NCBI RefSeq assembly: GCF_900105945.1
Contig: NZ_FNSO01000004.1
Location: 2,852,001 to 2,916,000 of the forward strand
Origin: Amycolatopsis tolypomycina
GTDB taxonomy: Bacteria; Actinomycetota; Actinomycetes; Mycobacteriales; Pseudonocardiaceae
Direction of reading: 5' to 3'
DNA: 64,000 nucleotides
The stretch's first letter is position 1. Every line of letters begins with the position of its first letter. Positions 37,302-51,252 of the stretch are shown in pieces. The notes below the pieces were generated by a model. It made no database searches, had not been told where the DNA came from, and worked only from the letters and a program-made list of their open reading frames with translations. The position numbers and the translations under genes are program-made.

Positions 37302-37326
37302 TTACCCGAGGTCGGAGCCGGGAAAC
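37302..37326 (-). promoter_or_regulatory. SigF-type promoter of ndh
   Basis: Minus strand: GTTT (37326-37323), 15 bases, GGGTAA (37307-37302). One of the best matches in the window; the leader to the ATG at 37262 is about 33 bases. Confidence 0.7.
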
Positions 37327-37333
37327 CCGCGGG

Positions 37334-37359
37334 GTTGACCTCCCGGCTCAGGGGCGTAC
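37334..37359 (+). promoter_or_regulatory. Weak SigF-type promoter of STAS gene
   Basis: GTTG (37334-37337), 16 bases, GCGTAC (37354-37359), one base off the GGGTAC form. It faces the opposite way to the ndh promoter and lies about 75 bases before the STAS gene. Confidence 0.35.
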
Positions 37360-37433
37360 GGTCAGGGGTGTTGGCTGTTGTTCAGACACGTGCTCCGGTC
37401 AGCGCCCCTGCAACGCTGGAACAAGGGAGCGCC

Positions 37434-37802
37434 ATGTACGACTGTTTCCGCACGATCTACGAACCGTCCGGCCTCACCGTCACCTCGACCGAACGCCCGG
37501 GCGGGATCACCGTCCTCACCCTGGTGGGCGACATCGACGCCGCCACGGTCGGCACGCTCGACGAAGCCCTCGCCACCGGCGAACGGCTGGTCGTCGACCT
37601 GAGCCGGGTGGCGTTCCTCAGCTGCGCCGGCGTCCGGTCGCTGCTGCAGGCGAACGACCGCACCGAACTCGCCGTCGTGCTCGGCGGCCACGCGGTCACC
37701 CGTTCGCTCGAAGCCACCGGCGCCGACCTGGTGCTGAAGGTCCACCCCGGCGTCGGCGCCGCGCTCGCCGGCCTCGGTCCCGAGCCCGGCCGGGAGGCGT
37801 GA
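37434..37802 (+). CDS. STAS-domain anti-sigma factor antagonist-like protein
   Basis: A 122-residue single STAS domain (GGITVLTLVGDIDAATVGTLDEAL through AGLGP). In the standard antagonist the phosphorylated serine sits in a DSSG-type loop; here the loop is FLSCAGVRSLL, giving Cys-Ala where Ser-Ser/Ala would be, with a Ser one position earlier. It may not be switched by phosphorylation in the usual way. AAGGGAG precedes the ATG. It probably binds the RsbW-type kinase of the SigF system in this region. Confidence 0.85.
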   Translation: MYDCFRTIYEPSGLTVTSTERPGGITVLTLVGDIDAATVGTLDEALATGERLVVDLSRVAFLSCAGVRSLLQANDRTELAVVLGGHAVTRSLEATGADLVLKVHPGVGAALAGLGPEPGREA

Positions 37803-37859
37803 CCGCTCGCGCGGACCACGCCTCCCGCCGTCCACTGTGGACATCCAAGACGGCGATAT

Positions 37860-38126
37860 TCAGTCGTCGCCCGGCCAGTCGCCGGTGGCCTTGCGGTAGC
37901 CGACCGCACCGGCCCGCTCGGTGGCGGCCTTGACGGCACCGAAGATCGCCCCCTGCACCGCCGCCGCGACGACCACCTGCCGCCAGGTGTAGTCGCGGTC
38001 AGTGGCGTCGGGGGCGTCGTCCTCCCCGGCCACGCGGCTCCAGACCTGCTTGAAGACCTGGCCGGCGAGGATGCCGCCCAGCGCACCCACGACCCAGCTC
38101 AGCGGCTTGTAGAGCGCTTTGTTCAC
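37860..38126 (-). CDS. DUF4235 membrane protein
   Basis: An 88-residue protein of the DUF4235 family, with hydrophobic segments at about residues 8-26 and 48-66 separated by an acidic loop with GEDDAPDATDRDYTWRQ. It is the last gene of a three-gene operon (holin-like, DUF3618, DUF4235) joined by ATGA overlaps. A common role in envelope stress is inferred from the promoter upstream of the first gene. Confidence 0.85.
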   Translation of the reverse strand: MNKALYKPLSWVVGALGGILAGQVFKQVWSRVAGEDDAPDATDRDYTWRQVVVAAAVQGAIFGAVKAATERAGAVGYRKATGDWPGDD

Positions 38127-38431
38127 GAGTTGTTCCTCCGTCGCAGGATCAGGCGGATCACGATCAGCAGGCCCAGCACGCCGGCGAAGACCGGCAGCGG
38201 GTTGGCGCGGACGGCGTCGGCGCCCTGGCGGAACTTCACCGCGGTCGGCTCGTTCGTCACGTCGGCGACCTTCGCGGTCGCCTGGTCGAGCTTCTCGTCG
38301 ACGTTCTCCTTGACCCTCGTCTTGACGTCGAGCTTCTGCCCGAGCGCCGTGAGGGTCTCGGTGAGTTCCTCCCGGGTGGTGTCCCGGTCGAGCCGCGCCT
38401 CCTCGGCGTTCTTCGGGAAGTCCCCGCTCAT
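38123..38431 (-). CDS. DUF3618 protein
   Basis: A 102-residue protein. The DUF3618 pattern is at the start (RLDRDTTREELTETLTALGQKLDVKTRVKENVDEKL), a long amphipathic helix, followed by one C-terminal transmembrane segment (LPVFAGVLGLLIVIRLILRRR). The family always travels with the holin-like and DUF4235 genes, as here. Its ATG overlaps the holin-like stop and its stop overlaps the DUF4235 start. Function unknown. Confidence 0.88.
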   Translation of the reverse strand: MSGDFPKNAEEARLDRDTTREELTETLTALGQKLDVKTRVKENVDEKLDQATAKVADVTNEPTAVKFRQGADAVRANPLPVFAGVLGLLIVIRLILRRRNNS

Positions 38432-38841
38432 GTCCGCACTCCCTGCTTCACGGTGTCCACGTCCTCGCGGACGCCGCTGATGGCTTCCTCGGGCACCGGT
38501 GGCACCCCTTGCGTCACTTCCTTCTTGCCCACCAGCGCCGCGATCCCGGCGACGACGAACAGCGCGACCGCGACGATCACCGCGGCCAGCCAGCCCGGCA
38601 CGACCAGCGCGAGCGCCAGCACGGCGGCCGCGACCAGCGTGCCGGCGCCGAGGAACGCGAACAGGCCCGCCGCGCCGAACAACCCGGCGCCAAGACCCAT
38701 CTTCTTGCCCTTGCGCTGCAGTTCGAAGACCGCGAGCCGCATCTCGTCCCGGACGAGCCGCTTGACCTCGTCGGTCAGGTCCGTCACCAGCTCGCCGACC
38801 GAACGGTCGGCCGCCGGTTTCCTGTTTGCCTCTTCGATCAC
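38428..38841 (-). CDS. Actinobacterial holin-like (DUF1469) membrane protein
   Basis: A 137-residue phage-holin-superfamily protein with a charged N-terminal helix (SVGELVTDLTDEVKRLVRDEMRLAVFELQRKGKK) and two transmembrane helices (about 57-77 and 86-106). The GTG at 38841 is chosen over a longer frame because AAAGGAGGTG lies right before it. It opens a three-gene operon behind a SigF-type promoter. Not a lysis gene in this setting; it is an envelope stress component by association. Confidence 0.88.
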   Translation of the reverse strand: MIEEANRKPAADRSVGELVTDLTDEVKRLVRDEMRLAVFELQRKGKKMGLGAGLFGAAGLFAFLGAGTLVAAAVLALALVVPGWLAAVIVAVALFVVAGIAALVGKKEVTQGVPPVPEEAISGVREDVDTVKQGVRT

Positions 38842-38868
38842 CGAACACCTCCTTTGCCTGGGCGGCGA

Positions 38869-38893
38869 GTACCCGGGCCCGGCACCGGTCAAC
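38869..38893 (-). promoter_or_regulatory. SigF-type promoter of the holin-like operon
   Basis: Minus strand: GTTG (38893-38890), 15 bases, GGGTAC (38874-38869), about 28 bases upstream of the GTG. It is back to back with the promoter at 38902. Confidence 0.7.
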
Positions 38894-38901
38894 CGCGCCG
38901 G

Positions 38902-38926
38902 GTTTGACCGCCGGTGCACCGGGTAG
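38902..38926 (+). promoter_or_regulatory. SigF-type promoter of the SRPBCC gene
   Basis: GTTT (38902-38905), 15 bases, GGGTAG (38921-38926), 35 bases before the ATG at 38961. Only eight bases separate its -35 from the divergent one, so both genes should respond together. Confidence 0.72.
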
Positions 38927-38960
38927 CCGAATTGCACCGACCATCGACCAGGAGGAGTGC

Positions 38961-39422
38961 ATGAGCACGATCACCGAAATCGTGGACGTGGAAGTCCCCG
39001 TTTCCACCGCGTACAACCAGTGGACGCAGTTCGAGGAATTCCCGAAGTTCATGGAGGGCGTCGAGGAAATCCGCCAGGTGGACGCCACCCACACCCACTG
39101 GGTGACGCGGTTCGGTGGCGTGACGCGCGAATTCGACGCGACGATCACCGAGCAGCACCCCGACGAGCGGGTCGCCTGGACGTCGGACTCCGGGCCGGAC
39201 CACGCCGGCGTGATCACCTTTCACCGGCTGGACGACTCGCACACCCGGGTGACCGCCCAGATGGACATCGACCCGGAGGGCTTCGCCGAGAACGTCGCCG
39301 ACAAGCTCGGCGTCCTCGACCGCCGGGTGAAGGGCGATCTCAAGCGGTTCAAGGAATACATCGAGCAGCGCGGCCGGGAGACCGGCGGCTGGCGGGGTGA
39401 CGTGGACCGCCCGGGGCAGTAG
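38961..39422 (+). CDS. SRPBCC (START/polyketide-cyclase-like) protein
   Basis: A 153-residue helix-grip-fold protein. It starts with STITEIVDVEVPVSTAYNQWTQFEEFPKFM and contains the typical WVTRFGGVTREFDATITEQHPDERVAW segment and a long C-terminal helix. These bind lipids or other hydrophobic ligands in a central cavity; no catalytic residue is evident. GGAGGAG lies before the ATG. The promoter class puts it in the general stress response. Confidence 0.87.
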   Translation: MSTITEIVDVEVPVSTAYNQWTQFEEFPKFMEGVEEIRQVDATHTHWVTRFGGVTREFDATITEQHPDERVAWTSDSGPDHAGVITFHRLDDSHTRVTAQMDIDPEGFAENVADKLGVLDRRVKGDLKRFKEYIEQRGRETGGWRGDVDRPGQ

Positions 39423-39487
39423 TTCTCGCCAGGTCACCCGTTCGGGGTGAGTTGTCGCGGCGGGGCGGGGATCACCCGCCCCGCCGC

Positions 39488-39514
39488 GTTTCACGTCCGG
39501 GGAACGCCGGGTAG
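39488..39514 (+). promoter_or_regulatory. SigF-type promoter of the aldo-keto reductase gene
   Basis: GTTT (39488-39491), 17 bases, GGGTAG (39509-39514). The ATG follows ten bases later, so the transcript is nearly or fully leaderless. Confidence 0.6.
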
Positions 39515-39523
39515 GCCGTACCC

Positions 39524-40363
39524 ATGACGACCACCACTGCCGGCGTTCCGGTCCTCGAACTGAACAACGGCGTGCGCATCCCGCAGCTGGGGTTCGGCGT
39601 GTTCCAGATCCCGCCGGAGGAGACCGCGCAAGCCGTGCGGACGGCCCTCGAAGCGGGGTACCGCCATGTCGACACCGCGCAGATGTACCGCAACGAAGCC
39701 GGCGTCGCCGCCGGGATCGCGGAAGCGGGCGTGGCCCGTGAAGACGTGTTCGTCACGACGAAGCTGGCGAACGACGCGCACGGGCACGACAACGCGATCA
39801 CCGCGCTCGAAGGCAGCCTGCGCCGGCTCGGCTTCGACTACGTCGACCTCTACCTGATCCACTGGCCGCTGCCGGCCAAGGACAACTACGTCCGCACCTG
39901 GCTGGGCTTCGAGGACATCCTGCGGGCGGGCAAGGCCCGCGCGGTCGGCGTGTCGAACTTCCAGCCCGCCCACCTCGACCGGCTCGCCGCGGAGACGTCC
40001 CTGGTGCCCGCGGTCAACCAGATCGAGCTGCACCCGGCGCTGCAGCAGCCGGGGCTGCGCGAGTACCACCGGGCGCACGGGATCGCCACCGAGGCGTGGA
40101 GCCCGCTGGCCCAGGCCGAGGTCCTCGGCGACCCGGTGCTCACCGGCCTGGCGGAGAAACACGGGCGGACCCCGGCGCAGGTCGTCCTCCGCTGGCACGT
40201 CCAGCTCGGCAACATCGTCTTCCCGAAGTCCGCCTCGCCCGGGCGGATGCGCGAGAACCTCGACGTGTTCGGTTTCGAGCTCGACGACGAGGACCTGGCG
40301 GCGATCGGCAGGCTCGACGAAGGCCGCCGCACCGGGCCGGACCCGGACAGCTTCGCCGGGTGA
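39524..40363 (+). CDS. Aldo-keto reductase
   Basis: A 279-residue (beta/alpha)8 NADPH oxidoreductase. The catalytic tetrad positions are visible: Asp in YRHVDTAQ, Tyr in AQMYRNE, Lys in TTKLAND and His in IHWPLP. The NADPH phosphate site FPKSASPGRMREN is near the C terminus. It reduces reactive aldehydes and ketones, fitting the stress promoter. The start at 39524 is supported by the promoter, not by a ribosome binding site. Confidence 0.92.
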   Translation: MTTTTAGVPVLELNNGVRIPQLGFGVFQIPPEETAQAVRTALEAGYRHVDTAQMYRNEAGVAAGIAEAGVAREDVFVTTKLANDAHGHDNAITALEGSLRRLGFDYVDLYLIHWPLPAKDNYVRTWLGFEDILRAGKARAVGVSNFQPAHLDRLAAETSLVPAVNQIELHPALQQPGLREYHRAHGIATEAWSPLAQAEVLGDPVLTGLAEKHGRTPAQVVLRWHVQLGNIVFPKSASPGRMRENLDVFGFELDDEDLAAIGRLDEGRRTGPDPDSFAG

Positions 40364-40387
40364 CGGTGTTCACCGCGTGACGGGGGC

Positions 40388-40413
40388 GTTTCCCTGCGCG
40401 ACCTGCCGGGTAT
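40388..40413 (+). promoter_or_regulatory. SigF-type promoter of the small membrane protein gene
   Basis: GTTT (40388-40391), 16 bases, GGGTAT (40408-40413), 36 bases upstream of the ATG at 40450. Confidence 0.68.
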
Positions 40414-40449
40414 TCCTCCGGCAAGGTCCCCCAGGAAGGAGCGTCCGGC

Positions 40450-40914
40450 ATGACCACGAACGCGTACCTGTCGTTCCTCGCGATCGGCGTTGCGCTGGTC
40501 CTGATAGACGGGCAGATCATCTACCGCAGCGGCCGCCGGTACCTGGAGAACTCCTACGGCGACCCGGCGGCGGGCGCGTCGATGACGCGCCTGGTCACGG
40601 TGCTGTTCCACCTCGCCACGCTGGGTGTGCTGGCCCTGATCTCGACCATCGACATGGGCGGCAGCGACCTGCCCGGCGTCGTCGGGCGGATCGGTGTGCT
40701 GCTGCTGATCCTCGCACTGGCCCACGCGATCACCCTCGGCGTCCTGGCCCGCATCCGCGGTGAGCAGGAGGTGGAGGCGGTCGTCCAGCGCGGCCCCCGC
40801 CCGCGGGTGGAGGCTGACCAGGGCCCGACGGTCACCCCGGTGCCGGGCCAGGACGGTCGTTACCCGGCCGCCAGCCCGTCGCTGGAGAACCGGGCCCCCT
40901 ATTCGGCCCAGTGA
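40450..40914 (+). CDS. Hypothetical small membrane protein
   Basis: A 154-residue protein with three predicted transmembrane helices: about residues 5-23 (YLSFLAIGVALVLIDGQII), 46-66 and 78-98. A hydrophilic, Pro-rich tail ends in SLENRAPYSAQ. No family is recognised. GAAGGAG lies close to the ATG. The SigF-type promoter and neighbourhood indicate a stress-induced envelope protein. A perfect hairpin terminator follows the stop. Confidence 0.8.
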   Translation: MTTNAYLSFLAIGVALVLIDGQIIYRSGRRYLENSYGDPAAGASMTRLVTVLFHLATLGVLALISTIDMGGSDLPGVVGRIGVLLLILALAHAITLGVLARIRGEQEVEAVVQRGPRPRVEADQGPTVTPVPGQDGRYPAASPSLENRAPYSAQ

Positions 40915-40920
40915 CCACCA

Positions 40921-40962: not shown

Positions 40963-41766
40963 TCAGCCTTCGGCGGCCGGCGGCAGGTCCACCTCGGTGT
41001 GCCGCGCGGCCAGGGTCCGCGCCAGGTCGGCGAGCTTGACGTTGAGGTCCTGGGACGCGCGGCGCAGCACGTCGAAGGCCTCGTCGGCGCTGATGCCGCG
41101 GCGCTGCATCAGGATGCCCTTCGCCTGGCCGATGACGTCCCGGCTGTCCACCGCGCGGCGCAGGTGCGCCGCCTCCAGCTCCGCGGTGGCCACGGCCTCG
41201 CTGTGGGAGAGGGCCAGTGACGCGTGCGTCGCCAGCAGCAGCGCGATGTCGATCGCCCGCGCGTCGAACGCCCCCGGGGTGCGCGAATAGATGTTGAGCG
41301 CGCCGGAAAGCCGGGGTGGGCGGGCGTCCGGGAGCAGCGCGGTGGCCAGCACCGAGTGGTAGCCGTGGCGGGCGGCGGCCGGGCCGAACACCGGCCAGCG
41401 CGGGTCCCGGCCCAGGTCCTGCGACCAGCCGACGGCCGGGCCGTCCGGGCGGGCCGACTCGACGCACGGGCCTTCGCCGTGGTCGTACTGCACCTGGTCG
41501 AGCCGCTCGGCGACGGCGTCCGTTTCGATCGGGGTGTGGAACCGGCCGTCGGCGTCCCGCAGGGTGACGCTGACCAGGTCGGCGCCCGGCACGAGCGCGG
41601 TCGCGCCGCCGACGACGAGCTTGAGCACACCGCCGACGGTCGGTGTCGCGTCGAGCAGGGTGCGGGTGAGGTCGGCGAACTGCCCGGCCAGCAGCCCCGG
41701 CGCCGGGGCACCGTCCTGTCCGAACCCGGCCCGTTCCCGGGCCCACTCCTCTTCGCCGACGCTCAT
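40963..41766 (-). CDS. GAF-ANTAR antitermination regulator
   Basis: A 267-residue protein. An N-terminal GAF sensor domain (about 30-190, with TLRDADGRFHTPIETDAVAERLDQVQYDHGEGPCVES) is joined to a C-terminal ANTAR RNA-binding domain (HLRRAVDSRDVIGQAKGILMQRRGISADEAFDVLRRAS). ANTAR proteins bind paired hexaloop hairpins in mRNA to prevent termination. GAGGATCC lies before the ATG. It follows the hemerythrin-like gene by 38 bp on the same strand and may share its promoter. Confidence 0.9.
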   Translation of the reverse strand: MSVGEEEWARERAGFGQDGAPAPGLLAGQFADLTRTLLDATPTVGGVLKLVVGGATALVPGADLVSVTLRDADGRFHTPIETDAVAERLDQVQYDHGEGPCVESARPDGPAVGWSQDLGRDPRWPVFGPAAARHGYHSVLATALLPDARPPRLSGALNIYSRTPGAFDARAIDIALLLATHASLALSHSEAVATAELEAAHLRRAVDSRDVIGQAKGILMQRRGISADEAFDVLRRASQDLNVKLADLARTLAARHTEVDLPPAAEG

Positions 41767-41806: not shown

Positions 41807-42328
41807 TCAACCCGATGCCGGGGTGCGCAGCGCGGCACGGGCCCGGTCGACGAACCCCGGCCCCGGCCACAGCTGGTCGGCCTGCGGCACCCGGTCGGCC
41901 AGATCCGGGTGGGGGAGCGTCGGCGCGGCCTCGCGGCTTTCGACGACGGCTCTGCCGAGTTCGGCCTGCCGTTCGGCGGAGCAGGTGCGCCGGATCTCCC
42001 GCTCGGCCGCGGGCCCTTCCTCGCGCACGTGCCGCCGGACGGCGCGGATCAGCCCGCCCAGCAGGCGCTCGAACCGCGGCTCCTGCGGTCCGACGCCTTC
42101 GAGCTGCCGCATCAGGCCGTCCGCCTCGGCGAGCTCGCCGTCGCCGTCGAGGAAGGGTTCTTCGGCGACGGCGTGCCGGACCAGCTCCGCGATCAGGTGA
42201 TCGGCGAGGTCCTTGCGGTTCTCCGGGCTGCCCTGGCCGAGCTCGAGCTCGGTGCAGAGCCGGTCGAGCTCGCGGTGGTCGCCGGCGAGGACGGTCGTCA
42301 GGTCGGTTGCGGGCTGGTTGCCGTTCAT
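41807..42328 (-). CDS. Hemerythrin HHE-domain protein
   Basis: A 173-residue four-helix protein. HHE-type ligands are seen in LAGDHRELDRL, HLIAELVRHAVAEEPFL and RRHVREEGP. Such proteins bind di-iron and sense or scavenge O2, NO or peroxide. The ATG at 42328 has AGGAGA upstream and is preferred to the longer frame. A SigF-type promoter is present 38 bases further up, divergent from that of the CYTH-CHAD gene. Confidence 0.85.
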   Translation of the reverse strand: MNGNQPATDLTTVLAGDHRELDRLCTELELGQGSPENRKDLADHLIAELVRHAVAEEPFLDGDGELAEADGLMRQLEGVGPQEPRFERLLGGLIRAVRRHVREEGPAAEREIRRTCSAERQAELGRAVVESREAAPTLPHPDLADRVPQADQLWPGPGFVDRARAALRTPASG

Positions 42329-42365: not shown

Positions 42366-42390
42366 ATACCCGCTGTTCCGGCGCCGAATC
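42366..42390 (-). promoter_or_regulatory. SigF-type promoter of the hemerythrin gene
   Basis: Minus strand: GATT (42390-42387), 15 bases, GGGTAT (42371-42366). The -10 is exact; the -35 matches GNTT. Confidence 0.5.
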
Positions 42391-42392: not shown

Positions 42393-42418
42393 GTGTCGGC
42401 CACGGCCTGCTCGGGTAT
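42393..42418 (+). promoter_or_regulatory. SigF-type promoter of the CYTH-CHAD gene
   Basis: GTGT (42393-42396), 16 bases, GGGTAT (42413-42418), 35 bases before the ATG at 42454, back to back with the hemerythrin promoter. Confidence 0.5.
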
Positions 42419-43988: not shown

Positions 43989-44035
43989 CTGAAGGGCACC
44001 TTCCTCCCATCGGATGCGAGGAAGGTGCCCTTCAG
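43989..44035. terminator. Perfect 18-bp hairpin between CYTH-CHAD and sigF
   Basis: CTGAAGGGCACCTTCCTC (43989-44006) pairs exactly with 44018-44035, loop CCATCGGATGC. It covers the sigF stop codon and lies after the convergent CYTH-CHAD gene. Confidence 0.85.
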
Positions 44036-44823
44036 CCTTCGCCGGTGAGCTTCCCCCGCAACTGTTCCAAGGTCTGAGACAACAACCGAGACACATGCAT
44101 CTGCGAGATCCCGACCCGATCGGCGATCTGAGTCTGCGTCAACCCCCCGAAGAACCGCATGACCAAAATAGCCCGTTCCCGCTTCGGCAGCTCCTGCAGC
44201 AGCGGCTGAAGCGCCTCGTGGTTCTCGACCATGGCCATCTCGTGGTCGGGTTCTCCCATGGTGTCCGCCAGCGACAACGCCTCCGCGTCGTCGTGCACCG
44301 GCTTGTCCACCGACAGCGCCTGGTACGCGTTCCCCGCCAGCAGGCCCTCACGGACCTCGTCGACGTCCAGGTTCAGGTGCTCCGCCAGCTCCGTCGGCGT
44401 CGGCGCACGGCCCAGGCGCTGCGACAGCACCGCAGAGCCCTGGCTGAGCGAGAGGTGCAGCTCCTTGAGCCGGCGGGGGACCCGCACCGACCAGCCGGTG
44501 TCGCGGAAGTGCCTGCGGACCTCGCCCATGATCGTCGGGACCGCGAAGGACAGGAAGTCGTGGCCGCGGGTGGGGTCGAACCGGTCGACCGCGTTGATCA
44601 GGCCGATCCGGGCCACCTGGACCAGGTCCTCACGCGGCTCGCCGCGGCCGGAGAACCGGGTGGCGATGTGCTCGGCCAGCGGGAGGAGCTCGGTGACGAG
44701 CTTGCTGCGGACGACCTCGCGCCGCGGGTCACCGGCCTCGAGGGTGCCCAGTTCCTCGAACAGCGGCTCGCAGTGGGCATATTCGTCGGGGCGGTGGAGG
44801 AGGGTTTTTCGCTCGCTGCTCAC
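44032..44823 (-). CDS. sigF: SigB/SigF-family stress sigma factor
   Basis: A 263-residue group-3 sigma factor. Region 2 is LAEHIATRFSGRGEPREDLVQVARIGLINAVDRFDPTRG with the core-binding and -10-reading FLSFAVPTIMGEVRRHFRDTGW. Region 3 is RRLKELHLSLSQGSAVL, and region 4 is ILVMRFFGGLTQTQIADRVGISQMHVSRLLSQTLEQLR. The GTG at 44823 overlaps the anti-sigma stop (GTGA), so both are made together. The surrounding GGGTA promoters match this family's known recognition sequence, and its own operon has one. Confidence 0.9.
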   Translation of the reverse strand: MSSERKTLLHRPDEYAHCEPLFEELGTLEAGDPRREVVRSKLVTELLPLAEHIATRFSGRGEPREDLVQVARIGLINAVDRFDPTRGHDFLSFAVPTIMGEVRRHFRDTGWSVRVPRRLKELHLSLSQGSAVLSQRLGRAPTPTELAEHLNLDVDEVREGLLAGNAYQALSVDKPVHDDAEALSLADTMGEPDHEMAMVENHEALQPLLQELPKRERAILVMRFFGGLTQTQIADRVGISQMHVSRLLSQTLEQLRGKLTGEG

Positions 44824-45269
44824 GCGCTCGTTCCCGGGTTGAGCACCAGCTCGATCGTCACGATGCCCGCACCTCCACCGGGCAGCACGTCGCAGTGGGC
44901 CGTCACGGACCGGCTCAGGGTCGTCAGCACGTGCCAGCCGAACGTGCGGTCGCTCGGCGGCCTCGGGTCGGTCGAGCGGGTCGACACGATCACGTGCAGG
45001 CCGTCCGGGGCCAGGCGGAAGCGGCACTGCAGCTGGGAGCCGAGCTCGGCCAGCTGGACGAGCTGGGCGCACGCCTCGTCGACGGCCATCTTGGCGTCGG
45101 CGATGGCGTCCAGGCCGAAGTCCGCGCGCGAGACCACGCCGTGCGTGAGCATCCGGACCAGCGGGATCTGCTCCGCCATGGCGGGCAGGCGCAGCTCGAC
45201 GAGTTCGTCGAGCAGCTCGTCGACGGTCGGCTTGCCGCCGAACGAGCTGTCGCTTCGAGTTTCTTCCAT
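44820..45269 (-). CDS. rsbW: RsbW-type anti-sigma factor (HATPase)
   Basis: A 149-residue serine kinase/anti-sigma factor. The N box is DAKMAVDEACAQLVQLA, and the ATP-lid region is shortened near GWHVLTTLSRSV; length fits the family. It should hold SigF inactive until a STAS antagonist displaces it. I choose the ATG at 45269 because the SigF-type -10 lies only ten bases upstream, giving a leaderless mRNA. The longer frame would place that promoter inside the gene. Its stop overlaps the sigF GTG. Confidence 0.85.
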   Translation of the reverse strand: MEETRSDSSFGGKPTVDELLDELVELRLPAMAEQIPLVRMLTHGVVSRADFGLDAIADAKMAVDEACAQLVQLAELGSQLQCRFRLAPDGLHVIVSTRSTDPRPPSDRTFGWHVLTTLSRSVTAHCDVLPGGGAGIVTIELVLNPGTSA

Positions 45270-45279: not shown

Positions 45280-45305
45280 CTACCCATCCGGTGTAATGGC
45301 GACAC
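45280..45305 (-). promoter_or_regulatory. Autoregulatory SigF-type promoter of rsbW-sigF
   Basis: Minus strand: GTGT (45305-45302), 16 bases, GGGTAG (45285-45280). Transcription should start near the ATG at 45269, so the message is leaderless and the operon is self-amplifying. Confidence 0.6.
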
Positions 45306-45694: not shown

Positions 45695-45719
45695 GTACCC
45701 GCTTGATCGCGCGGCAAAC
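45695..45719 (-). promoter_or_regulatory. SigF-type promoter of the small basic protein gene
   Basis: Minus strand: GTTT (45719-45716), 15 bases, GGGTAC (45700-45695), 34 bases upstream of the ATG at 45661. Confidence 0.7.
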
Positions 45720-45735
45720 GTCCGGGTCGTGGTGG

Positions 45736-45760
45736 GTTACCCGCTGCTCGCGGGGGGTAA
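45736..45760 (+). promoter_or_regulatory. SigF-type promoter of the F420 oxidoreductase gene
   Basis: GTTA (45736-45739), 15 bases, GGGTAA (45755-45760), 28 bases before the ATG at 45789. Divergent from the preceding promoter. Confidence 0.5.
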
Positions 45761-45788
45761 GCGGGGGGTTGACCGAGAGGAGGCGCCG

Positions 45789-46754
45789 ATGCGGATCGGC
45801 TACACCCTGATGACCGAGCAGGCAGGCCCGGACGACCTGGTCCGGTACGCCGCCGGCGCGGAACGGGCCGGCTTCGACTTCGAGGTCATGAGCGACCACT
45901 ACTCGCCCTGGCTGGACGAACAGGGGCACGCGCCCTACGCCTGGAGCGTGCTGGGCGCGGTCACGCAGGTGACCGAACGAGCCGAGCTGATGACCTACGT
46001 GACCTGCCCGACCATGCGCTACCACCCGGCGGTCGTGGCGCAGAAGGCCGCAACCATCCAGGCGCTCTCGGGCGGCCGGTTCACCCTCGGCCTCGGGGCG
46101 GGGGAGAACCTCAACGAGCACGTCATCGGCCAGGGCTGGCCGCCGGCCAACGTCCGGCACGAGATGCTGGCCGAGGCCGTGCAGATCATCGGCGGCCTGT
46201 TCGACGGCGGCTACTTCGACTACGAGGGCAAGCACTTCCGCGTCGACTCGGCGAAGCTGTGGGACCTGCCGGAAAAGCGGACGCCGATCGGCGTCGCGGT
46301 GTCCGGTTCGCAGTCGGTCCGGAAGTTCGCCCCGGTCGCCGACGTGATGATCGCCGTCGAGCCGAAGGTGGAGCTGTCCCAGGAGTGGGACGCGACGAAG
46401 CTGGGTGGCGCGCCGAGCCGCAAGGTCGGGCAGCTGCCGGTGTCGTGGGGCACCGACCGCGACGCCGCCGTCCAGCGCGCGCACGAGCAGTTCCGCTGGT
46501 TCGCCGGCGGCTGGAAGGTCAACGCCGAGCTCCCGGGCCCGGCCGGGTTCGCCGGGGCGACGCAGTTCGTCCGCGAGGAGGACGTCGCCGGGTCGATCCC
46601 GTGCGGCCCGGACGTCGAGCCGATCGCCGAGGCGGTGCGGGAGTTCGAAAAGGCGGGCTTCACCGACGTGGCGCTGGTCCAGATCGGCGGTGACCAGCAG
46701 GAGGGCTTCCTCGACTTCGCCGAGAAGGAACTGCTGCCGGCCCTGCGCGGGTAG
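45789..46754 (+). CDS. LLM-class F420-dependent oxidoreductase (G6PDH-like subfamily)
   Basis: A 321-residue (beta/alpha)8 luciferase-like enzyme using coenzyme F420. The opening MRIGYTLMTEQAGPDDLVRYA, the cofactor loop GGRFTLGLGAGENLNEHVIG and SDHYSPWLDEQGHAP match the F420-dependent glucose-6-phosphate-dehydrogenase-like group. The true substrate may be another alcohol or aldehyde. AGAGGAGG lies close to the ATG. Stress promoter as noted at 45736. Confidence 0.9.
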   Translation: MRIGYTLMTEQAGPDDLVRYAAGAERAGFDFEVMSDHYSPWLDEQGHAPYAWSVLGAVTQVTERAELMTYVTCPTMRYHPAVVAQKAATIQALSGGRFTLGLGAGENLNEHVIGQGWPPANVRHEMLAEAVQIIGGLFDGGYFDYEGKHFRVDSAKLWDLPEKRTPIGVAVSGSQSVRKFAPVADVMIAVEPKVELSQEWDATKLGGAPSRKVGQLPVSWGTDRDAAVQRAHEQFRWFAGGWKVNAELPGPAGFAGATQFVREEDVAGSIPCGPDVEPIAEAVREFEKAGFTDVALVQIGGDQQEGFLDFAEKELLPALRG

Positions 46755-46759: not shown

Positions 46760-47113
46760 TCAGGCGGGTGCGGGGGCGGGCCGGTGCGCGGTCAAGGCGA
46801 GGCGCTGGTCCGCCCCGGTGACCTGCAGGGCTCGCCGGACCATCGGGTTGGTCCCGGTGACGACGAGCAGCTCGGTGCCGCCCGACCCGGCCTGCAGCGC
46901 CGCGTGCAGCAGCACCCGGATCCCGGCCACGCCGAGGAAGTCCACTTCGGACAGATCGACGACCAGCCGGTCCGGTGTCGCCCACAGGCGGTCGGAGAGC
47001 AGCGCGGCCAGGTCGCCTGCCGTCGCGCTGTCGAGGTCGCCGCGCGCGGTCACCAGTACCGCGTGCGGGGCGGGCCACGCCGTGCGCAGCCGCAGGCTGG
47101 AGTGAGAGCTCAT
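46760..47113 (-). CDS. STAS-domain protein lacking the phosphorylatable serine
   Basis: A 117-residue single STAS domain (VLVTARGDLDSATAGDLAALL onward). The switch loop reads VDFLGVAGIRVLL: Gly-Val-Ala-Gly replaces the DSSG/DSAG-type phosphoacceptor, so this antagonist cannot be inactivated by the usual serine phosphorylation. It may be constantly active or bind another partner. It is convergent with the F420 oxidoreductase gene, five bases apart. No SigF-type promoter was seen. Confidence 0.83.
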   Translation of the reverse strand: MSSHSSLRLRTAWPAPHAVLVTARGDLDSATAGDLAALLSDRLWATPDRLVVDLSEVDFLGVAGIRVLLHAALQAGSGGTELLVVTGTNPMVRRALQVTGADQRLALTAHRPAPAPA

Positions 47114-47403: not shown

Positions 47404-48135
47404 ATGACGGGCGGCCATGAGCAGCTCACCGCGCGGCTGGACGAAGTCACGCTCGCGATGGAGTCGCTGACCGCGATGCTGGACAGCGAGCTCGACCTCG
47501 GCCAGATGCTGCAGGCGGTGTGCGACCACGCCGTGCAGGTGGTGCCCGGGGCCGACATGGCCAGCATCACCCTGGTGCGCGACGGGGTGCCGGAGACGGT
47601 GGCCAGCACCGACCAGCGGGCGGTGAACTTCGACCGCGAGCAGTACCGGATCGGGGACGGACCGTGCCTGCGCGCGGCGGAGACGGGCCAGCCGGTCCGC
47701 GTCGGCGTCGGCGCGGTCGGGGACCTGTGGCCGCAGTTCGTCTCCTCGGCCGGGCAACTGGGCGTGGCGAGCTTCCTCGCCGCACCGCTGACGGTGGACG
47801 AGGACATGTCCGGCGCGGTGAACCTGTTCGGCTTCGGCGAGCACGGCTTCAGCGAGCTGGGCACCAAGATCCTCGAGCTCTACACGGCCACGGTGGTGTT
47901 CGGCCTCCGCAGCGCGCGGCGTTACTTCGCGGCCCGCGAGCTGGTCGACCAGCTCAACCGGGCCCTGGAAACCCGTGCGGTGATCGACCAGGCCAAGGGA
48001 ATCCTGATGGCCGCCCACCGCATCACGGCGGAGGAAGCCTTCCAGCGGCTGGTGAAGCGTTCCCAGGACGGCAACCGGAAGCTCCACGAGGTGGCGGCGG
48101 AGTTCGTGACCGCGGTGGCGACGACGACCGCGTGA
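47404..48135 (+). CDS. GAF-ANTAR antitermination regulator
   Basis: A 243-residue GAF sensor (about 20-175) with C-terminal ANTAR domain (LNRALETRAVIDQAKGILMAAHRITAEEAFQRLVKRS). It is a paralogue of the protein at 40963-41766; both keep the DQAKGILM-type core for RNA-hairpin binding. AAGGAGG (47385-47391) lies 12 bases before the ATG. The RNA targets are not apparent in this window. Confidence 0.9.
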   Translation: MTGGHEQLTARLDEVTLAMESLTAMLDSELDLGQMLQAVCDHAVQVVPGADMASITLVRDGVPETVASTDQRAVNFDREQYRIGDGPCLRAAETGQPVRVGVGAVGDLWPQFVSSAGQLGVASFLAAPLTVDEDMSGAVNLFGFGEHGFSELGTKILELYTATVVFGLRSARRYFAARELVDQLNRALETRAVIDQAKGILMAAHRITAEEAFQRLVKRSQDGNRKLHEVAAEFVTAVATTTA

Positions 48136-48158
48136 GCGGGCGGTCCGACTCGGCAGGG

Positions 48159-48371
48159 TCAGCCGGCCGGGACCTCGTCCGGGGGTGCCTCGGACTCGAC
48201 CGGGGCCGGGTCCTGGCGGGGCTTGCTGCGCTGGCAGGTCGTGCAGACCAGGGTGCGGCCGAGCACCGTGCCGTCGTCGGCGACCACCTGGGCCACGTGC
48301 ATCGTCGGGAAGCCGCAGACCTCGCACGGCAGTGAGCCGTCTTCGCGGCTGATGCGGAGCTGGGTGCCCAT
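48159..48371 (-). CDS. Small zinc-ribbon-like protein
   Basis: A 70-residue protein with two CxxC pairs (LPCEVCGF and LVCTTCQR) about 28 residues apart, the layout of a small zinc ribbon, then an acidic Pro-rich tail. The ATG at 48371 is chosen because AGGAGG lies just upstream; a longer frame is unsupported. It is convergent with the GAF-ANTAR gene. Function unknown; a transcription- or repair-associated role is possible. Confidence 0.72.
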   Translation of the reverse strand: MGTQLRISREDGSLPCEVCGFPTMHVAQVVADDGTVLGRTLVCTTCQRSKPRQDPAPVESEAPPDEVPAG

Positions 48372-48478
48372 CCGGCCTCCTGCTGTGACGTGGGTCTCAC
48401 CACCTTGCCTGTCTCCGGTGCCGGACCCGGGTGAATTCACTCGTTCGGCCTAGCCGCACCGGATCTTCGGGGCTTGCC

Positions 48479-48504
48479 GTGTCGCCTGGCGGGATCCTGG
48501 GTAA
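48479..48504 (+). promoter_or_regulatory. SigF-type promoter of the small-protein/Ku operon
   Basis: GTGT (48479-48482), 16 bases, GGGTAA (48499-48504), 36 bases before the ATG at 48541. Confidence 0.5.
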
Positions 48505-48540
48505 CCCGCGGGCGAACGAACTGCCGGAGGGGAGCGAAAG

Positions 48541-48735
48541 ATGCGAGACAAGCGCAACGATCTGCGGCCGGTGGCGGACCTGCTGGTCGACGGGGACTCA
48601 CCCGAGCTGGAGCGCACGCGCCACAAGGCGGCGCTGGCCGTGGCCGCCCGGGCGAAGGACCCCGAAGACTGCGCGCGGCTGCTGGACATGCTGGGGCTGC
48701 ACCGCGGCGGCCGCCGCGCCAGCGACGTCGCCTGA
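48541..48735 (+). CDS. Small hypothetical protein upstream of Ku
   Basis: A 64-residue, charged, helical protein (RHKAALAVAARAKDPEDCARLLDMLGL) with no recognised domain. GGAGGGGAG lies before its ATG and the Ku start follows 28 bases after its stop, so it is probably co-transcribed with Ku from the SigF-type promoter. Confidence 0.65.
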   Translation: MRDKRNDLRPVADLLVDGDSPELERTRHKAALAVAARAKDPEDCARLLDMLGLHRGGRRASDVA

Positions 48736-48763
48736 TAGCCGTCGCGGAAAGCAGGAGGACGAC

Positions 48764-49690
48764 ATGGCCCGGCCCGTCTGGAGCGGCGCACTGAGCCTGG
48801 GACTGGTCACCGTGCCGGTGGAGCTGTACCCGGCGGTGGCGGACCACACGATCCACTTCCACCAGTTCGAACGCGGGACGTCGGACCGCATCCGCAACCG
48901 GCGGGTCAACGAGCGGACCGGCGAAGAGGTCACCCAGGACGAAATCGTCAAGGGCTACGACCTCGGCGGCGGCGACCACGTGCTCGTCGAACCGGACGAA
49001 CTGGACGAGATCGCGCCCGAGCGGTCGCGCCGGATCGACATCGAGCAGTTCGTCGAGCTCGACGAGATCGACCCGTGGTTCTTCGACAAGACGTACTGGC
49101 TCAAGCCGGCGAAGGAGGACTTCGCCAAGGCGTACGGCCTGCTGCTGCAGGCGATGGACCGCAGCGAGAAGGCCGGTATCGCCAAATTCGTACTGCGCGG
49201 CAAGGAGTACCTCGCGGCCGTCCGCGCCGGCGAGGACGTGATGGTGCTCAACACCCTGCACTTCGTCGCCGACCTGCGGAAGCCGAAGGACGTCATGGGC
49301 AAGCTGCCGCAGCTGCCGAAACCGCGGCCCAAGGAGCTCGACATGGCGCTCGCGCTGGTCGACGAGATGACCGCGCCCTGGAAACCCGAGGACTACCGCG
49401 ACGAATACTCCAAGCGCGTCGAAGAGCTGATCAAGGCGAAGGAAGCAGGCAAGGAGATCACCCACGAGGAGGAGCCGGAGCCCTCGGCCGACGTCGTCGA
49501 CCTGTTCGAGGCGTTGTCGCGCAGCGTGAAGAACCGCAAGGGCGGCGGCAAGGAGCCGAAGAAGAAGGCCGGGAAGAAACTGTCCGAGCTGTCGAAGTCC
49601 GATTTGGACAAGCTGGCTCGCGAGCAGGGCGTGAAGGGCCGCTCGAAGATGACGCGGGCCGAGCTCGAGAAGGCCCTGAAAGCATCGTGA
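48764..49690 (+). CDS. ku: Ku protein of bacterial non-homologous end joining
   Basis: A 308-residue homodimeric DNA-end-binding protein. The Ku core starts with RPVWSGALSLGLVTVPVELY and runs to about 250 (DWFF-type WFFDKTYWLKPAK, and VLNTLHFVADLR). The extension ends in a HeH/SAP-like tail (KLAREQGVKGRSKMTRAELE) nearly the same as that of the small protein at 45332. AGGAGG lies before the ATG. No LigD partner is encoded in the window. Expression in stress or stationary phase is predicted from the upstream promoter. Confidence 0.95.
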   Translation: MARPVWSGALSLGLVTVPVELYPAVADHTIHFHQFERGTSDRIRNRRVNERTGEEVTQDEIVKGYDLGGGDHVLVEPDELDEIAPERSRRIDIEQFVELDEIDPWFFDKTYWLKPAKEDFAKAYGLLLQAMDRSEKAGIAKFVLRGKEYLAAVRAGEDVMVLNTLHFVADLRKPKDVMGKLPQLPKPRPKELDMALALVDEMTAPWKPEDYRDEYSKRVEELIKAKEAGKEITHEEEPEPSADVVDLFEALSRSVKNRKGGGKEPKKKAGKKLSELSKSDLDKLAREQGVKGRSKMTRAELEKALKAS

Positions 49691-49691
49691 C

Positions 49692-50318
49692 TCAGCCGAG
49701 CAGCTTCGCCGCCGCACGCAGATCGGCGACGAAGGCCGCGTAGGCGTCGTCGCGGTCCGGGGCCCGCAGCACCGCCGACGGGTGGACCGTGGCCAGCGCC
49801 GACGGCACCAGGTCGGCGACGTCCGCCGGTGCTTCCACCGGCTCGCCGCGGTGGGCGGTGAGCCGGAACTTCGGGCCCAGCAACGACTGAGCGGCCGTCG
49901 CGCCCAGCAACAGCACCAGCTCCGGGCGCACCGCGCGCAGCTCGGCCAGCAGCCACGGGCGGCACGCGACCACCTCGGTGCGGCCCGGCTTCTGGTGGAT
50001 GCGGCGCTTCCCCTCGCGCTTGAACTTGAAGTGCTTGACCGCGTTGGTGACGTACAACGACCGCCGGTCGAAGCCGGCTTCCTCGAAGGCGCGGTCCAGC
50101 AGTTTCCCGGCCGGTCCCACGAACGGCTCACCCGCGAGGTCTTCCTTGTCGCCGGGCTGCTCGCCGACGACGAGGACCTGCGCCCCGGCGTCGCCTTCGC
50201 CGAAGACGGTCTGCGTGGCGTCCTGGTAGAGCGGGCAACCCCGGCAACCGGACGCCGCCGACCGCAACCGGTCGAGGTCGGTGGTGTCCGGTGGCTCGGC
50301 ACCGCGGGAATCCGGCAT
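49692..50318 (-). CDS. udgX: UdgX-type uracil-DNA glycosylase
   Basis: A 208-residue enzyme of the family-4-like UDG group. The insertion KRRIHQK (K104-K110) is the UdgX hallmark; its histidine (H108 here) forms a covalent bond with the abasic site in the mycobacterial enzyme. Motif A reads GEQPGDKED and motif B is HPSAVLRAP. Cysteines C25, C28 and C119 fit the iron-sulfur site. The ATG at 50318 gives the normal length. A near-consensus SigF-type promoter is just upstream. Confidence 0.92.
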   Translation of the reverse strand: MPDSRGAEPPDTTDLDRLRSAASGCRGCPLYQDATQTVFGEGDAGAQVLVVGEQPGDKEDLAGEPFVGPAGKLLDRAFEEAGFDRRSLYVTNAVKHFKFKREGKRRIHQKPGRTEVVACRPWLLAELRAVRPELVLLLGATAAQSLLGPKFRLTAHRGEPVEAPADVADLVPSALATVHPSAVLRAPDRDDAYAAFVADLRAAAKLLG

Positions 50319-50328
50319 GCCCCCGGAA

Positions 50329-50354
50329 ATTCCCCGGCCACGGCGCGGGTAAAC
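50329..50354 (-). promoter_or_regulatory. Near-consensus SigF-type promoter of udgX
   Basis: Minus strand: GTTT (50354-50351), 16 bases, GGGAAT (50334-50329), one base from GGGTAT. Start of transcription would fall almost at the ATG. Confidence 0.38.
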
Positions 50355-50371
50355 GTGCCCGGCCCGGGTAG
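50347..50371 (+). promoter_or_regulatory. SigF-type promoter of the CBS gene
   Basis: GGGT (50347-50350), 15 bases, GGGTAG (50366-50371), 35 bases before the ATG at 50406. It overlaps the divergent udgX -35 element. Confidence 0.5.
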
Positions 50372-50405
50372 CCGAGACGCAACCGCCCAGAGAAAGGAGT
50401 TCACG

Positions 50406-50822
50406 ATGACCACCGCACGCGACATCATGACGTCGGACGCGACCTGCGCCCGGGAGTCCGACACCGTGCACGACGCCGCGGTCACCATGGCCCAGAAGAG
50501 TGTCGGCGCGCTGCCGATCTGCGGTGAGGACAACCGGCTCAAGGGCATGATCACCGACCGCGACATCGTGGTGAAGGTGCTGGCCGAGGGCAAGGACCCG
50601 CGCGCGGTCCACGTCGGCGAACTCGCCCAGGGCGAGGTCGTCACGATCGGCGCGGACGACGACGCCCAGGAGATCCTGCGCACGATGTCCGAGCACCGCG
50701 TCCGCCGGCTGCCGGTGATCGACGGGCACGACCTCGTCGGGATCGTCGCCCAGGCCGACGTGGCCCGCGCGCTGTCGAACCCCAGCGCCGGCGAGCTGGT
50801 CGAGGCGCTGTCCTACGACTGA
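50406..50822 (+). CDS. Paired CBS-domain protein
   Basis: A 138-residue Bateman module: CBS1 at about 5-60 (DIMTSDATCARESDTVHDAAV to ITDRDIVVKVL) and CBS2 at about 70-128 (VTIGADDDAQEILRTMSEHRVRRLPVI). Such stand-alone modules bind adenine nucleotides and act as energy sensors; homologues in mycobacteria are called hypoxic response protein 1. GAAAGGAG precedes the ATG. A perfect terminator follows. Confidence 0.93.
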   Translation: MTTARDIMTSDATCARESDTVHDAAVTMAQKSVGALPICGEDNRLKGMITDRDIVVKVLAEGKDPRAVHVGELAQGEVVTIGADDDAQEILRTMSEHRVRRLPVIDGHDLVGIVAQADVARALSNPSAGELVEALSYD

Positions 50823-50836
50823 GTGACCCCTCGACC

Positions 50837-50878
50837 CACTACGGCCGCCCCCGGCACGTTCCGGGGGCGGCCGTAGTG
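50837..50878. terminator. Perfect 18-bp hairpin terminator
   Basis: CACTACGGCCGCCCCCGG (50837-50854) pairs exactly with 50861-50878 over loop CACGTT, between the convergent CBS and DUF3040 genes. Confidence 0.82.
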
Positions 50879-50888
50879 CGCTGGCACG

Positions 50889-51194
50889 TCAGCGGGAACC
50901 GGTGGCGGCGGTACCGTCCTCAGTGGACTCGCGGATGGCCTCGGCGCGGGCGATGTGCCAGGCCACCAGTGCGCCCGCGCTCACCGTGCCCCACAGCACG
51001 AGCGCGGCGTCGCGGGCGAACAGGCCCACGAGCAGCATCGTCACCGCCGTGATGTCGCACAGCAGGAGCAACAGGCTCCACCGCCTGGGCGCGCGCAGCG
51101 AGCGGCCGCTGAGGGCGGCGGCGAACGCGGGATCACTCGCGCGCAGCTCCGCCTCGATTTCGCGCAGGGCGTGGCGTTCTCGATCCGGGAGCAT
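50889..51194 (-). CDS. DUF3040 small membrane protein (second copy)
   Basis: A 101-residue paralogue of the protein at 1891-2154: a charged amphipathic start (ERHALREIEAELRASDPAFAAAL) and two transmembrane segments at about 40-58 and 63-83. GGAGG lies before the ATG at 51194, with a SigF-type promoter further up. The family function is unknown. Confidence 0.86.
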   Translation of the reverse strand: MLPDRERHALREIEAELRASDPAFAAALSGRSLRAPRRWSLLLLLCDITAVTMLLVGLFARDAALVLWGTVSAGALVAWHIARAEAIRESTEDGTAATGSR

Positions 51195-51226
51195 GGGGGG
51201 CCTCCTCGCCTCGGCTACCGGGCTGG

Positions 51227-51252
51227 ATACCCGTTTTCCCCGCTTCCGAAGC
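51227..51252 (-). promoter_or_regulatory. SigF-type promoter of the second DUF3040 gene
   Basis: Minus strand: GCTT (51252-51249), 16 bases, GGGTAT (51232-51227), 33 bases upstream of the ATG. Confidence 0.52.

Follow-up and report, generated by a model that had tools for sequence, protein, structure and literature searches.

We have found a cluster of promoter-like sites around the sigF gene of Amycolatopsis tolypomycina that very probably marks one island, the one next to sigF, of a general-stress regulon under SigF. It occupies positions 37302-51252 of the window, by which we mean the whole 64-kb stretch of DNA that was analysed. This reading is favoured because the class of the sigma factor, its operon partner, the motif, the position and density of the sites and their conservation in relatives all agree. 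Gene families, motif positions, density, conservation and a fixed promoter geometry were read directly from the sequence, and from them we infer recognition of the sites by SigF, partner switching, feedback and competition. The regulon extends beyond the sigF island. A second island, the back-to-back geometry of divergent promoters and STAS proteins without a phospho-serine are new here.

Amycolatopsis makes important antibiotics. Our literature search, which covered few subscription journals, found no study of an Amycolatopsis SigF regulon, none of SigF promoter pairs or back-to-back alternative-sigma promoters, and none linking heptose genes with SigF.

Results

The sigma factor and its regulators

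The regulatory features of the island are as follows.

44032..44823, minus strand: sigF, SigF/SigB-family sigma factor of 263 aa (NF005514, TIGR02980; regions 2, 3 and 4 present)
44820..45269, minus strand: rsbW-type anti-sigma gene (HATPase_c_2 just above cut-off; PDB matches)
45281..45305, minus strand: GTGT-N16-GGGTA before rsbW-sigF, 12 nt ahead of the start
37434..37802, plus strand: STAS protein with SCA in place of the GSV of RsfB; upstream region without a strong motif
46760..47113, minus strand: STAS protein whose phospho-site reads GVA; upstream region without a strong motif
47404..48135, plus strand: second GAF-ANTAR protein; upstream region without a strong motif

The sigF product passes the curated SigF model NF005514 (382.2 bits, cut-off 372) and the SigBFG model TIGR02980 (296.8 bits, cut-off 234.35). 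The earlier note had placed this sigma in the class that reads such promoters and had called it the only one in the window; the SigBFG model indeed matches the window in one place. The rsbW-type gene lies upstream of sigF with a 4-base overlap (44820-44823), which qualifies the two as an operon. Its product, searched from a longer start at 45335, fell below the cut-offs of the RsbW models and just over that of HATPase_c_2; its PDB matches, 8ih8 and 8jzt, are the anti-sigma-F factor RsbW. The N-box reads DEACAQL and lacks the Asn of kinase-active RsbW, a residue found there in none of 124 aligned rows (which include duplicate loci and are not all proven sigF neighbours). A kinase-active RsbW is thus unlikely, and the RsbW of the sigF operon probably lacks kinase activity. 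No second RsbW-like gene was found in the window, which has one HATPase_c_2 match. The GTGT site before rsbW-sigF has a middling matrix score of 13.6, lower than most, which counts against the regulon reading; through this site the operon may regulate itself.

The regulatory proteins of the island all fall in known families. The phospho-serine is missing from the three island STAS proteins, in a reading across 28 loci that gave no result for 6 and picked an incorrect stretch in at least 3 others. A strong motif is absent ahead of two STAS genes of the island and of one GAF-ANTAR gene, which also counts against the regulon reading.

Promoter-like sites and the genes behind them

Motif sites and the units that they precede are listed below, with two outlying sites at the end.

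37303..37326, minus strand: GTTT-N15-GGGTA before a Pyr_redox_2 (NDH-2-like) gene, 35973-37262
38870..38894, minus strand: GGTT-N16-GGGTA before 38428-38841, 38123-38431 and 37860-38126 (holin-X, DUF3618, DUF4235)
38902..38925, plus strand: GTTT-N15-GGGTA before an SRPBCC (Polyketide_cyc) gene, 38961-39422
39488..39513, plus strand: GTTT-N17-GGGTA before an aldo/keto reductase gene, 39524-40363
40388..40412, plus strand: GTTT-N16-GGGTA before the gene of a 154-aa membrane-like protein without a Pfam match, 40450-40914
42367..42390, minus strand: GATT-N15-GGGTA before hemerythrin (41807-42328) and GAF-ANTAR (40963-41766) genes
42393..42417, plus strand: GTGT-N16-GGGTA before a CYTH-CHAD gene, 42454-43962
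45696..45719, minus strand: GTTT-N15-GGGTA before a 109-aa gene, 45332-45661 (Ku-like C-terminal tail; no Pfam or NCBIfam match)
45738-45762, minus strand: second site before the 109-aa gene, from the motif scan
45735..45759, plus strand: GGTT-N16-GGGTA before a TIGR03557 F420-dependent oxidoreductase gene, 45789-46754
48479..48503, plus strand: GTGT-N16-GGGTA before 48541-48735 and Ku, 48764-49690
50347..50370, plus strand: GGGT-N15-GGGTA before a CBS gene, 50406-50822
50331-50354, minus strand: weaker GTTT-N15-GGGGA before a UDG-family gene, 49692-50318, overlapping the CBS-gene site
51228..51252, minus strand: GCTT-N16-GGGTA before a DUF3040 gene, 50889-51194
2198..2222, minus strand: outlying GGTT-N16-GGGTA; a DUF3040 gene, 1891-2154, begins 44 nt further on
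27778..27801, minus strand: outlying GTGT-N15-GGGTA; a possible ORF of 88 codons, 27460-27726, begins 52 nt further on (not predicted by the gene caller; no Pfam match)

A pattern scan of the 64 kb for GNKT-N14-18-GGGTA gave 22 distinct -10 positions. Fifteen lie in 37302-51252, where an even spread would give 4.8 (binomial P 4e-6), and the remaining 50 kb holds seven, three of them non-coding. Fourteen of the 15 island sites are non-coding, though 87.5% of the island is coding by our own gene calls; the exception, 48827 (minus strand), lies within the Ku gene. The non-coding sites stand 11, 12, 29, 30, 34, 35, 36, 36, 37, 38, 38, 39, 41 and 77 nt from their starts and serve 13 units, the 109-aa gene having two.

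These counts bear out the earlier note in its claim of motifs before at least eleven genes or operons, and in that of several divergent pairs: 38870/38925 and 42367/42417 abut, and 45696/45759 is looser. Both of its outlying sites are present too, one base from where it had put them.

Across the two regions scanned, 17 of 32 sites (one of the 32 coding) carry an exact GTTT and 30 of 32 a spacer of N15-17, in keeping with the mycobacterial GTTT-N14-19-GGGTA. The base compositions of the -35 and -10 boxes in the matrix follow from the pattern used in the search and test nothing. C or T directly follows GGGTA in 12 of 31 sites, which departs from the mycobacterial GGGTAY and counts against the regulon reading; C is frequent at the second (18/31) and third (27/31) base past GGGTA.

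Chance and the genome-wide count

It is scarcely credible that base composition produced the sites by chance. The reversed GNKT pattern occurs three times across the window, once in the island, and a matrix scan of the window gave 61 overlapping matches against 26-32 in five shuffles, with a matrix trained on sites of these same islands. Genome-wide, GTTT-N14-18-GGGTA was found 89 times against 12 for its reversal, GGTT 131 against 43, and GTGT-N14-18-GGGTA only 129 against 78, so that GTTT is the strong -35 element and a GTGT by itself says little. The GTGT count speaks for chance, as does the fact that three of the 89 GTTT matches are one repeated 25-mer, which we take to be 16S rRNA. So does position outside the islands, where 27 of 46 sites have a gene start no more than 120 nt ahead of them, against 6 of 12 reversed controls (46 of 72 non-island sites were examined, and the controls include repeated copies). 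Within 60 nt the figures are 19/46 and 1/12 (P 0.04), in a band picked after seeing the data. Position evidence for motif function outside the islands is thus weak; the genome-wide intergenic enrichment that the earlier note looked for appears in number (89 vs 12) and is no clearer than the control in position. Against chance stand the GTTT excess, the placing of 14 of 15 island sites in its non-coding eighth, and conservation of the motifs in relatives. The reversed-pattern counts rule out a chance origin for the island as a whole; individual GTGT, GCTT or GGGT sites could be chance matches.

The second island, C4:3979258-4022390, lies 1.1 Mb from the first and holds 12 GTTT sites. It is longer than the sigF island, has about 18 promoter-bearing units, and further sites occur elsewhere in the genome. 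Cluster P-values are 1.5e-8 for the sigF island and 1e-14 for the second, as plain Poisson values with a rate that includes the islands and only a rough factor as scan correction. A SigF regulon clustered at its own sigma gene, as first proposed, is supported locally, with more of the regulon held by the second island.

A second sigma factor

The genome has two matches above the TIGR02980 cut-off, and reading of the promoters by the window SigF alone is not established because the other, C3:717751 (252 bits), is also of the SigB/F/G family. It is possible, if doubtful, that this sigma reads the promoters mainly or jointly, with the window SigF as one of two readers. It has an RsbW-like gene of its own: after the sigma gene comes a GATT-N16-GGGTA, 40 nt ahead of a gene that overlaps the HATPase_c_2 match C3:717257, and a STAS gene, C3:719681, is close by. 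In S. coelicolor, SigB homologues cross-recognise promoters (PMC8346170). However, its 3.65-kb locus has one relaxed site and no motif cluster, and there is no GTTT site within 26 kb. The cluster and the possible autoregulatory promoter sit at the window sigF, which favours SigF of the window as reader.

Conservation in relatives

In 20 relatives, 20 kb around each sigF together held 156 motifs against 23 reversed. Eight of the 20 have 11-15 motifs, six have 5-8 and six have 1-2, the last with SigF proteins 74-83% identical; given these twelve, the regulon does not require its sites to gather at sigF, which counts against the island reading. A quick tree, the sole basis of this statement, places the window-type Amycolatopsis SigFs in one clade (26 rows, SH-aLRT 98); the A. 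bullii type and the two island paralogues of G033 fall outside it.

The second island carries a heptose-glycan block and TopIB, relatives of which are found next to sigF in some mycobacteria and some 50 kb away from it in two Amycolatopsis. The nearness of the heptose-glycan block to sigF hints that the SigF stress response has long included surface remodelling. Nine relatives retain the NodU gene of a candidate ancestral island, and in seven of them that island is split. We put forward, tentatively and as rather unlikely in its entirety, that Mycobacteriales SigF regulons combine back-to-back elements for one holoenzyme, dividing limiting sigma in a set ratio, with a heptose-glycan core and an ancestral sigF island later split in many Amycolatopsis.

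Back-to-back divergent promoters

The divergent SigF-type start signals are unusually regular in their back-to-back arrangement, as judged from sequence. The -35 boxes are central and nearly touch, about 0-8 bp apart, and the -10 boxes are outermost. The distance from -10 to -10 is 56 bp for 38870-38894 (minus) with 38902-38925 (plus), and 51 bp for 42367-42390 (minus) with 42393-42417 (plus), the hemerythrin/CHAD pair, which keeps 51 bp in 8 of 8 cases. It is 49-57 bp in 48 of 60 divergent pairs. The half-pair pattern occurs 391 times in 40 genomes of the genus against 47 reversed; the binomial P computed there is too small, since orthologous pairs were treated as independent against a flat null. 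Helical phasing of pairs (52, 62-64 and 73 bp), seen by eye only in too few independent cases, was dropped.

Whether the spacing is mere compaction, two promoters fitted into as little intergenic DNA as they can share and without regulatory significance, is evenly balanced in our judgement. A span of 49-57 bp barely exceeds the 48-50 bp that two promoters need if they are not to overlap, and the intergenic median is 123 (n=59) where motifs point both ways against 178 (n=138) for other divergent pairs. On the other hand, spacers diverge between species while -10, -35 and pair length stay, and 51-53 bp is again the commonest value among the few pairs listed from the order's other families (5 of at least 7). 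That the central AAAC-n-GTTT palindrome is instead the operator of a dimeric regulator is improbable: the middle of the pair is in part a palindrome and hardly varies in some families, but the arms also stand singly at non-divergent genes before the same N15-17-GGGTA, and the gap between them varies. The hemerythrin/CHAD arms, GATT and GTGT, are both within the -35 range reported for SigF, GTGT being among the M. smegmatis -35 elements in Table 1 of PMC4694148 and GATT among the S. coelicolor promoters in PMC8346170. Two -35 boxes remain the preferred account of the palindrome.

Discussion

We propose that SigF would be held inactive by its co-transcribed, probably kinase-less RsbW until, under stress, STAS anti-anti-sigma proteins take RsbW from it. 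Freed SigF with RNA polymerase would start at GTTT-like-N15-17-GGGTA sites in the 13 units of the sigF island, about 18 of the second and scattered genes; the switch would feed itself if rsbW-sigF is under its own SigF-type promoter. Dependence of the island promoters on SigF is likewise predicted from sequence features. Several divergent units would be served by two back-to-back promoters, and because the -35 boxes are about 0-8 bp apart, two polymerases would not sit together on a pair and the sigma pool would be split both ways. Between them the islands offer about 30 units with such a promoter, all testable in one deletion strain, and the fixed geometry offers a clean natural system for polymerase sharing of one site.

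Comparison with known systems

Clustering of SigF-type promoters around sigF is already known from M. smegmatis, where many SigF-dependent genes lie between MSMEG_1758 and MSMEG_1804 around sigF and lose expression in a sigF deletion (PMC4694148); the stress island of the earlier note is thus real as a local cluster and familiar in kind. As in that species, GTTT-N14-19-GGGTA-like promoters are present and clustered beside rsbW-sigF, as in a mycobacterial-type SigF regulon. Also in common with the M. smegmatis genes are a topoisomerase of type I, an RsbW and numerous conserved hypothetical proteins (PMC4694148). The Amycolatopsis sites differ in occupying two islands 1.1 Mb apart with other gene content, in a base after GGGTA that is mostly not Y, where the mycobacterial consensus is GGWWT-N16-17-GGGTAY (PMC7693655), and in belonging to a regulon predicted from sequence.

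In M. smegmatis, RsbW1, without kinase activity, adjoins sigF and a SigF-driven booster, RsbW3, has been proposed (PMC7693655). An apparently kinase-less RsbW next to sigF is shared, and the booster resembles the role that we propose for SigF-driven STAS genes; unlike M. smegmatis, the window has no second RsbW-like gene, and the island STAS proteins appear to lack the phospho-Ser. S. coelicolor has nine SigB homologues that read each other's promoters (PMC8346170); the promoter class and the presence of several family members per genome are alike, with two over the TIGR02980 cut-off in A. tolypomycina against nine homologues. At E. coli bidirectional promoters, starts are commonly 10-23 bp apart, -10 DNA is common to both and polymerase competition has been demonstrated (PMC12825309). 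Here too one segment would serve both directions, but in place of a shared -10 the -35 boxes abut centrally and the -10 boxes lie 49-57 bp apart.

Results

SigF-type promoters cluster around sigF

Sites of the form GNKT-N14-18-GGGTA occur at 22 distinct positions in the window (C4:2852001-2916000), 15 of which fall in the island at 37302-51252 around rsbW-sigF (sigF, 44032-44823, minus strand), where 4.8 were expected (P 4e-6). Fourteen of these 15 are non-coding and lie 11-77 nt 5' of a start, in an island that is 12.5% non-coding. Gene calls came from a codon-usage script, and gene starts are estimates. The sigF product scored above cut-off for the profile models NF005514 and TIGR02980, and is 98% identical to that of Amycolatopsis sp. 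MtRt-6 and 97% to that of A. iheyensis, which places the organism in Amycolatopsis. The promoter clustering described in the earlier note is real, and its count of at least eleven units with such promoters rises to 13. The UDG-superfamily gene (49692-50318) has a GGGGA variant only. Of the STAS and GAF-ANTAR genes in the island, two and one, respectively, lack a strong site.

Units of the sigF island with a GGGTA site upstream
1: NDH-2-like Pyr_redox_2
2: holin-X/DUF3618/DUF4235
3: SRPBCC
4: AKR
5: 154-aa membrane-like protein
6: hemerythrin + GAF-ANTAR
7: CYTH-CHAD
8: rsbW-sigF (weaker matrix score, 13.6)
9: 45332-45661, minus strand, 109-aa protein
10: TIGR03557 F420 enzyme (weaker matrix score, 14.6)
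11: small gene + Ku (Ku 48764-49690, plus strand)
12: CBS
13: DUF3040

A promoter matrix trained on 31 sites from this and a second island gave 61 overlapping matches in the window, versus 26-32 in five shuffled windows, and every island match of at least 16 bits was intergenic and upstream of a start. The -35 box was exactly GTTT in 17 of 32 scanned sites and the spacer 15-17 in 30 of 32; C was the second base after GGGTA in 18 of 31 sites and the third in 27. Across the genome (10.36 Mb in 4 contigs), forward and reversed-pattern counts were 89 vs 12 for GTTT-type, 129 vs 78 for GTGT-type and 131 vs 43 for GGTT-type sites, the last set overlapping the first. The genome-wide enrichment that the earlier note asked for holds in number for GTTT sites, but not clearly in position: among the 46 of 72 GTTT sites inspected outside the islands, 27 had a start within 120 nt downstream, versus 6 of 12 reversed-control sites. 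Within 60 nt the figures were 19 of 46 and 1 of 12. Sequence comparison gives good support to reading the region as an island of the SigF regulon.

The C-terminal tails of Ku and the 109-aa protein resemble each other closely (LSKSDLDKLAREQGVKGRSKMTRAELEKALKAS and LTKDQLYNEAKKKNIDGRSKMTKKELEQALGR, respectively) and may be a DNA-binding module common to two proteins with the same type of promoter.

A second island and its history

A second island, about 1.1 Mb from sigF (contig C4:3979258-4022390), holds 12 GTTT sites (P 1e-14). A relaxed scan of the three loci covering it (L001-L003) found 18 sites versus 2 reversed, 15 of them within 60 nt of a start and the others at 70, 104 and 143. None of the 19 SigBFG-model matches in the genome lies there.

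Genes of the second island
Hemerythrin, two GCS2, haem-oxygenase-like, methyltransferase, SDR, TopIB, epimerase
Pyruvyltransferase-like, NodU-type carbamoyltransferase, GmhA-like, HldE-like, GT9 heptosyltransferase-like
Nucleotide-sugar dehydrogenase, ALDH, glycosyltransferase with HAD-IIIA (GmhB-like) domain, DUF2795, DUF4383

The heptose-enzyme names rest on NCBIfam matches below cut-off; matches to the subfamily models for the sugar dehydrogenase and for HAD-IIIA exceeded it. Each island encodes one small CxxC...CxxC protein (window 48159-48371, minus strand; locus L003:8161-8325, plus strand); the two are alike in sequence and neither has a Pfam match. In one relative, G049, the two kinds match at 50%.

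We surveyed sigF neighbourhoods in the best 80 of 587 loci (up to 10 kb per side, some shorter; 27 mycobacterial). Near sigF were TopIB homologues in 10 loci, all mycobacterial, GmhA in 7 (six mycobacterial and Goodfellowiella) and NodU in 5 (four mycobacterial and Prescottella equi). Among 20 Amycolatopsis genomes, nine have the NodU gene at 79% identity or more and 11 lack it at that identity. In G014 and G019 a motif-poor stretch of about 50 kb separates it from sigF, and its matches there carry one in-frame TGA. The distance is 0.27-0.64 Mb in G046, G049 and G033, and 1.1-1.3 Mb in G025, G039, G059 and G012, similar to the 1.11 Mb of the window's genome. The second island of G033 (L160-L161, C1 2.55-2.58 Mb) encodes its own pair of SigF paralogues (66% and 63%) together with Ku, GAF-ANTAR and 109-aa homologues. 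We infer a single ancestral island that was split later; movement the opposite way is a conceivable alternative.

Around sigF itself, 20 kb from each of 20 genomes contained 156 motifs versus 23 reversed: 11-15 per genome in eight, 5-8 in six and 1-2 in six. The last six (G049, G009, G027, G051, G012, G033) form one clade in a quick SigF tree. Dense motif clustering around sigF therefore characterises part of the genus. Glycomyces arizonensis has a like island in another family, with nine SigF-type sites in 10.7 kb next to sigF, one of which is within the gene, and hemerythrin, UDG, CBS, holin-X and 109-aa homologues. In MtRt-6 the sigF region occurs on two contigs (17.3 kb, 99.9% identity), which reflects either recent duplication or the assembly itself.

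Back-to-back promoters

The two islands, together with 29 regions of relatives, contain 60 divergent pairs in which neither promoter is more than 150 nt from a start. Linkage of flanking proteins gave 19 gene-pair families, a few with a partner in common, and one intergenic region was counted twice. The -10 to -10 distance was 49-57 in 48 pairs, where the -35 boxes are central and the -10 boxes outermost, and 22, 30, 36 (twice), 62 (three times), 63, 64, 97, 135 and 179 in the others. In the hemerythrin/CHAD pair it was 51 in all eight cases, with a constant centre and diverged spacers. Forty non-island loci of the window's genome yielded a single, overlapping pair at 21 bp.

The half-pair pattern TACCC-N14-17-AAAC-N0-30-GTTT matched 391 times versus 47 reversed in 40 genomes of the genus, 38 of them above control. 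Among the matches listed, from 15 of the 40, at least 23 pairs were reciprocal, some being orthologues (18 at 49-58 bp, the rest at 65-74). In 77 other genomes of the order the counts were 152 vs 54, with 39 genomes above control, 30 equal and 8 below, so enrichment is weaker outside the genus; some matches there lie in a repeated segment, presumably 16S rRNA. At least seven reciprocal pairs were among those matches listed (51, 51, 51, 53, 53, 59 and 74 bp).

Control of SigF

The N-box of the window RsbW reads DEACAQ, versus SEACTN in 6m36, an RsbW of the B. subtilis type that is annotated as a serine-protein kinase, and none of 124 aligned RsbW rows, duplicate loci and some unproven sigF neighbours included, has Asn at that position. 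In M. smegmatis, according to PMC7693655, RsbW2 alone of three RsbW homologues phosphorylated RsfB; the sigF-linked RsbW1 did not. Of 28 STAS matches in the genome, the three island proteins have SCA, GVA and, as judged by eye, GAA at the GSV position of RsfB, and so are without the acceptor Ser. Three further STAS genes outside the islands have a SigF-type site upstream and read ASI, with Ser, or GLA and GVT, without it. Such proteins could provide a SigF-fed, kinase-independent boost.

At C3:717257-719938, a second SigB/F/G-family sigma factor, 49% identical to SigF, has RsbW-like and STAS genes close by. Several RsbW-like ATPase and STAS matches are grouped at C4:5107098-5126559, possibly an additional partner-switching hub. 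Remote from both islands, a paralogous module at C4:1859287-1863865 has SRPBCC and holin-X/DUF3618-like genes (by eye) and two GTTT-type SigF sites.

Discussion

Three features merit follow-up: the pair of islands, the conservation of the back-to-back promoter geometry, and the link with a heptose-glycan block. We found no published description of this geometry in the literature searched, which covers a minority of subscription journals. The kind of system is already known from M. smegmatis, where the RsbW3 proposal resembles the boost suggested here. The bidirectional promoters described in E. coli differ in geometry from the Amycolatopsis pairs.
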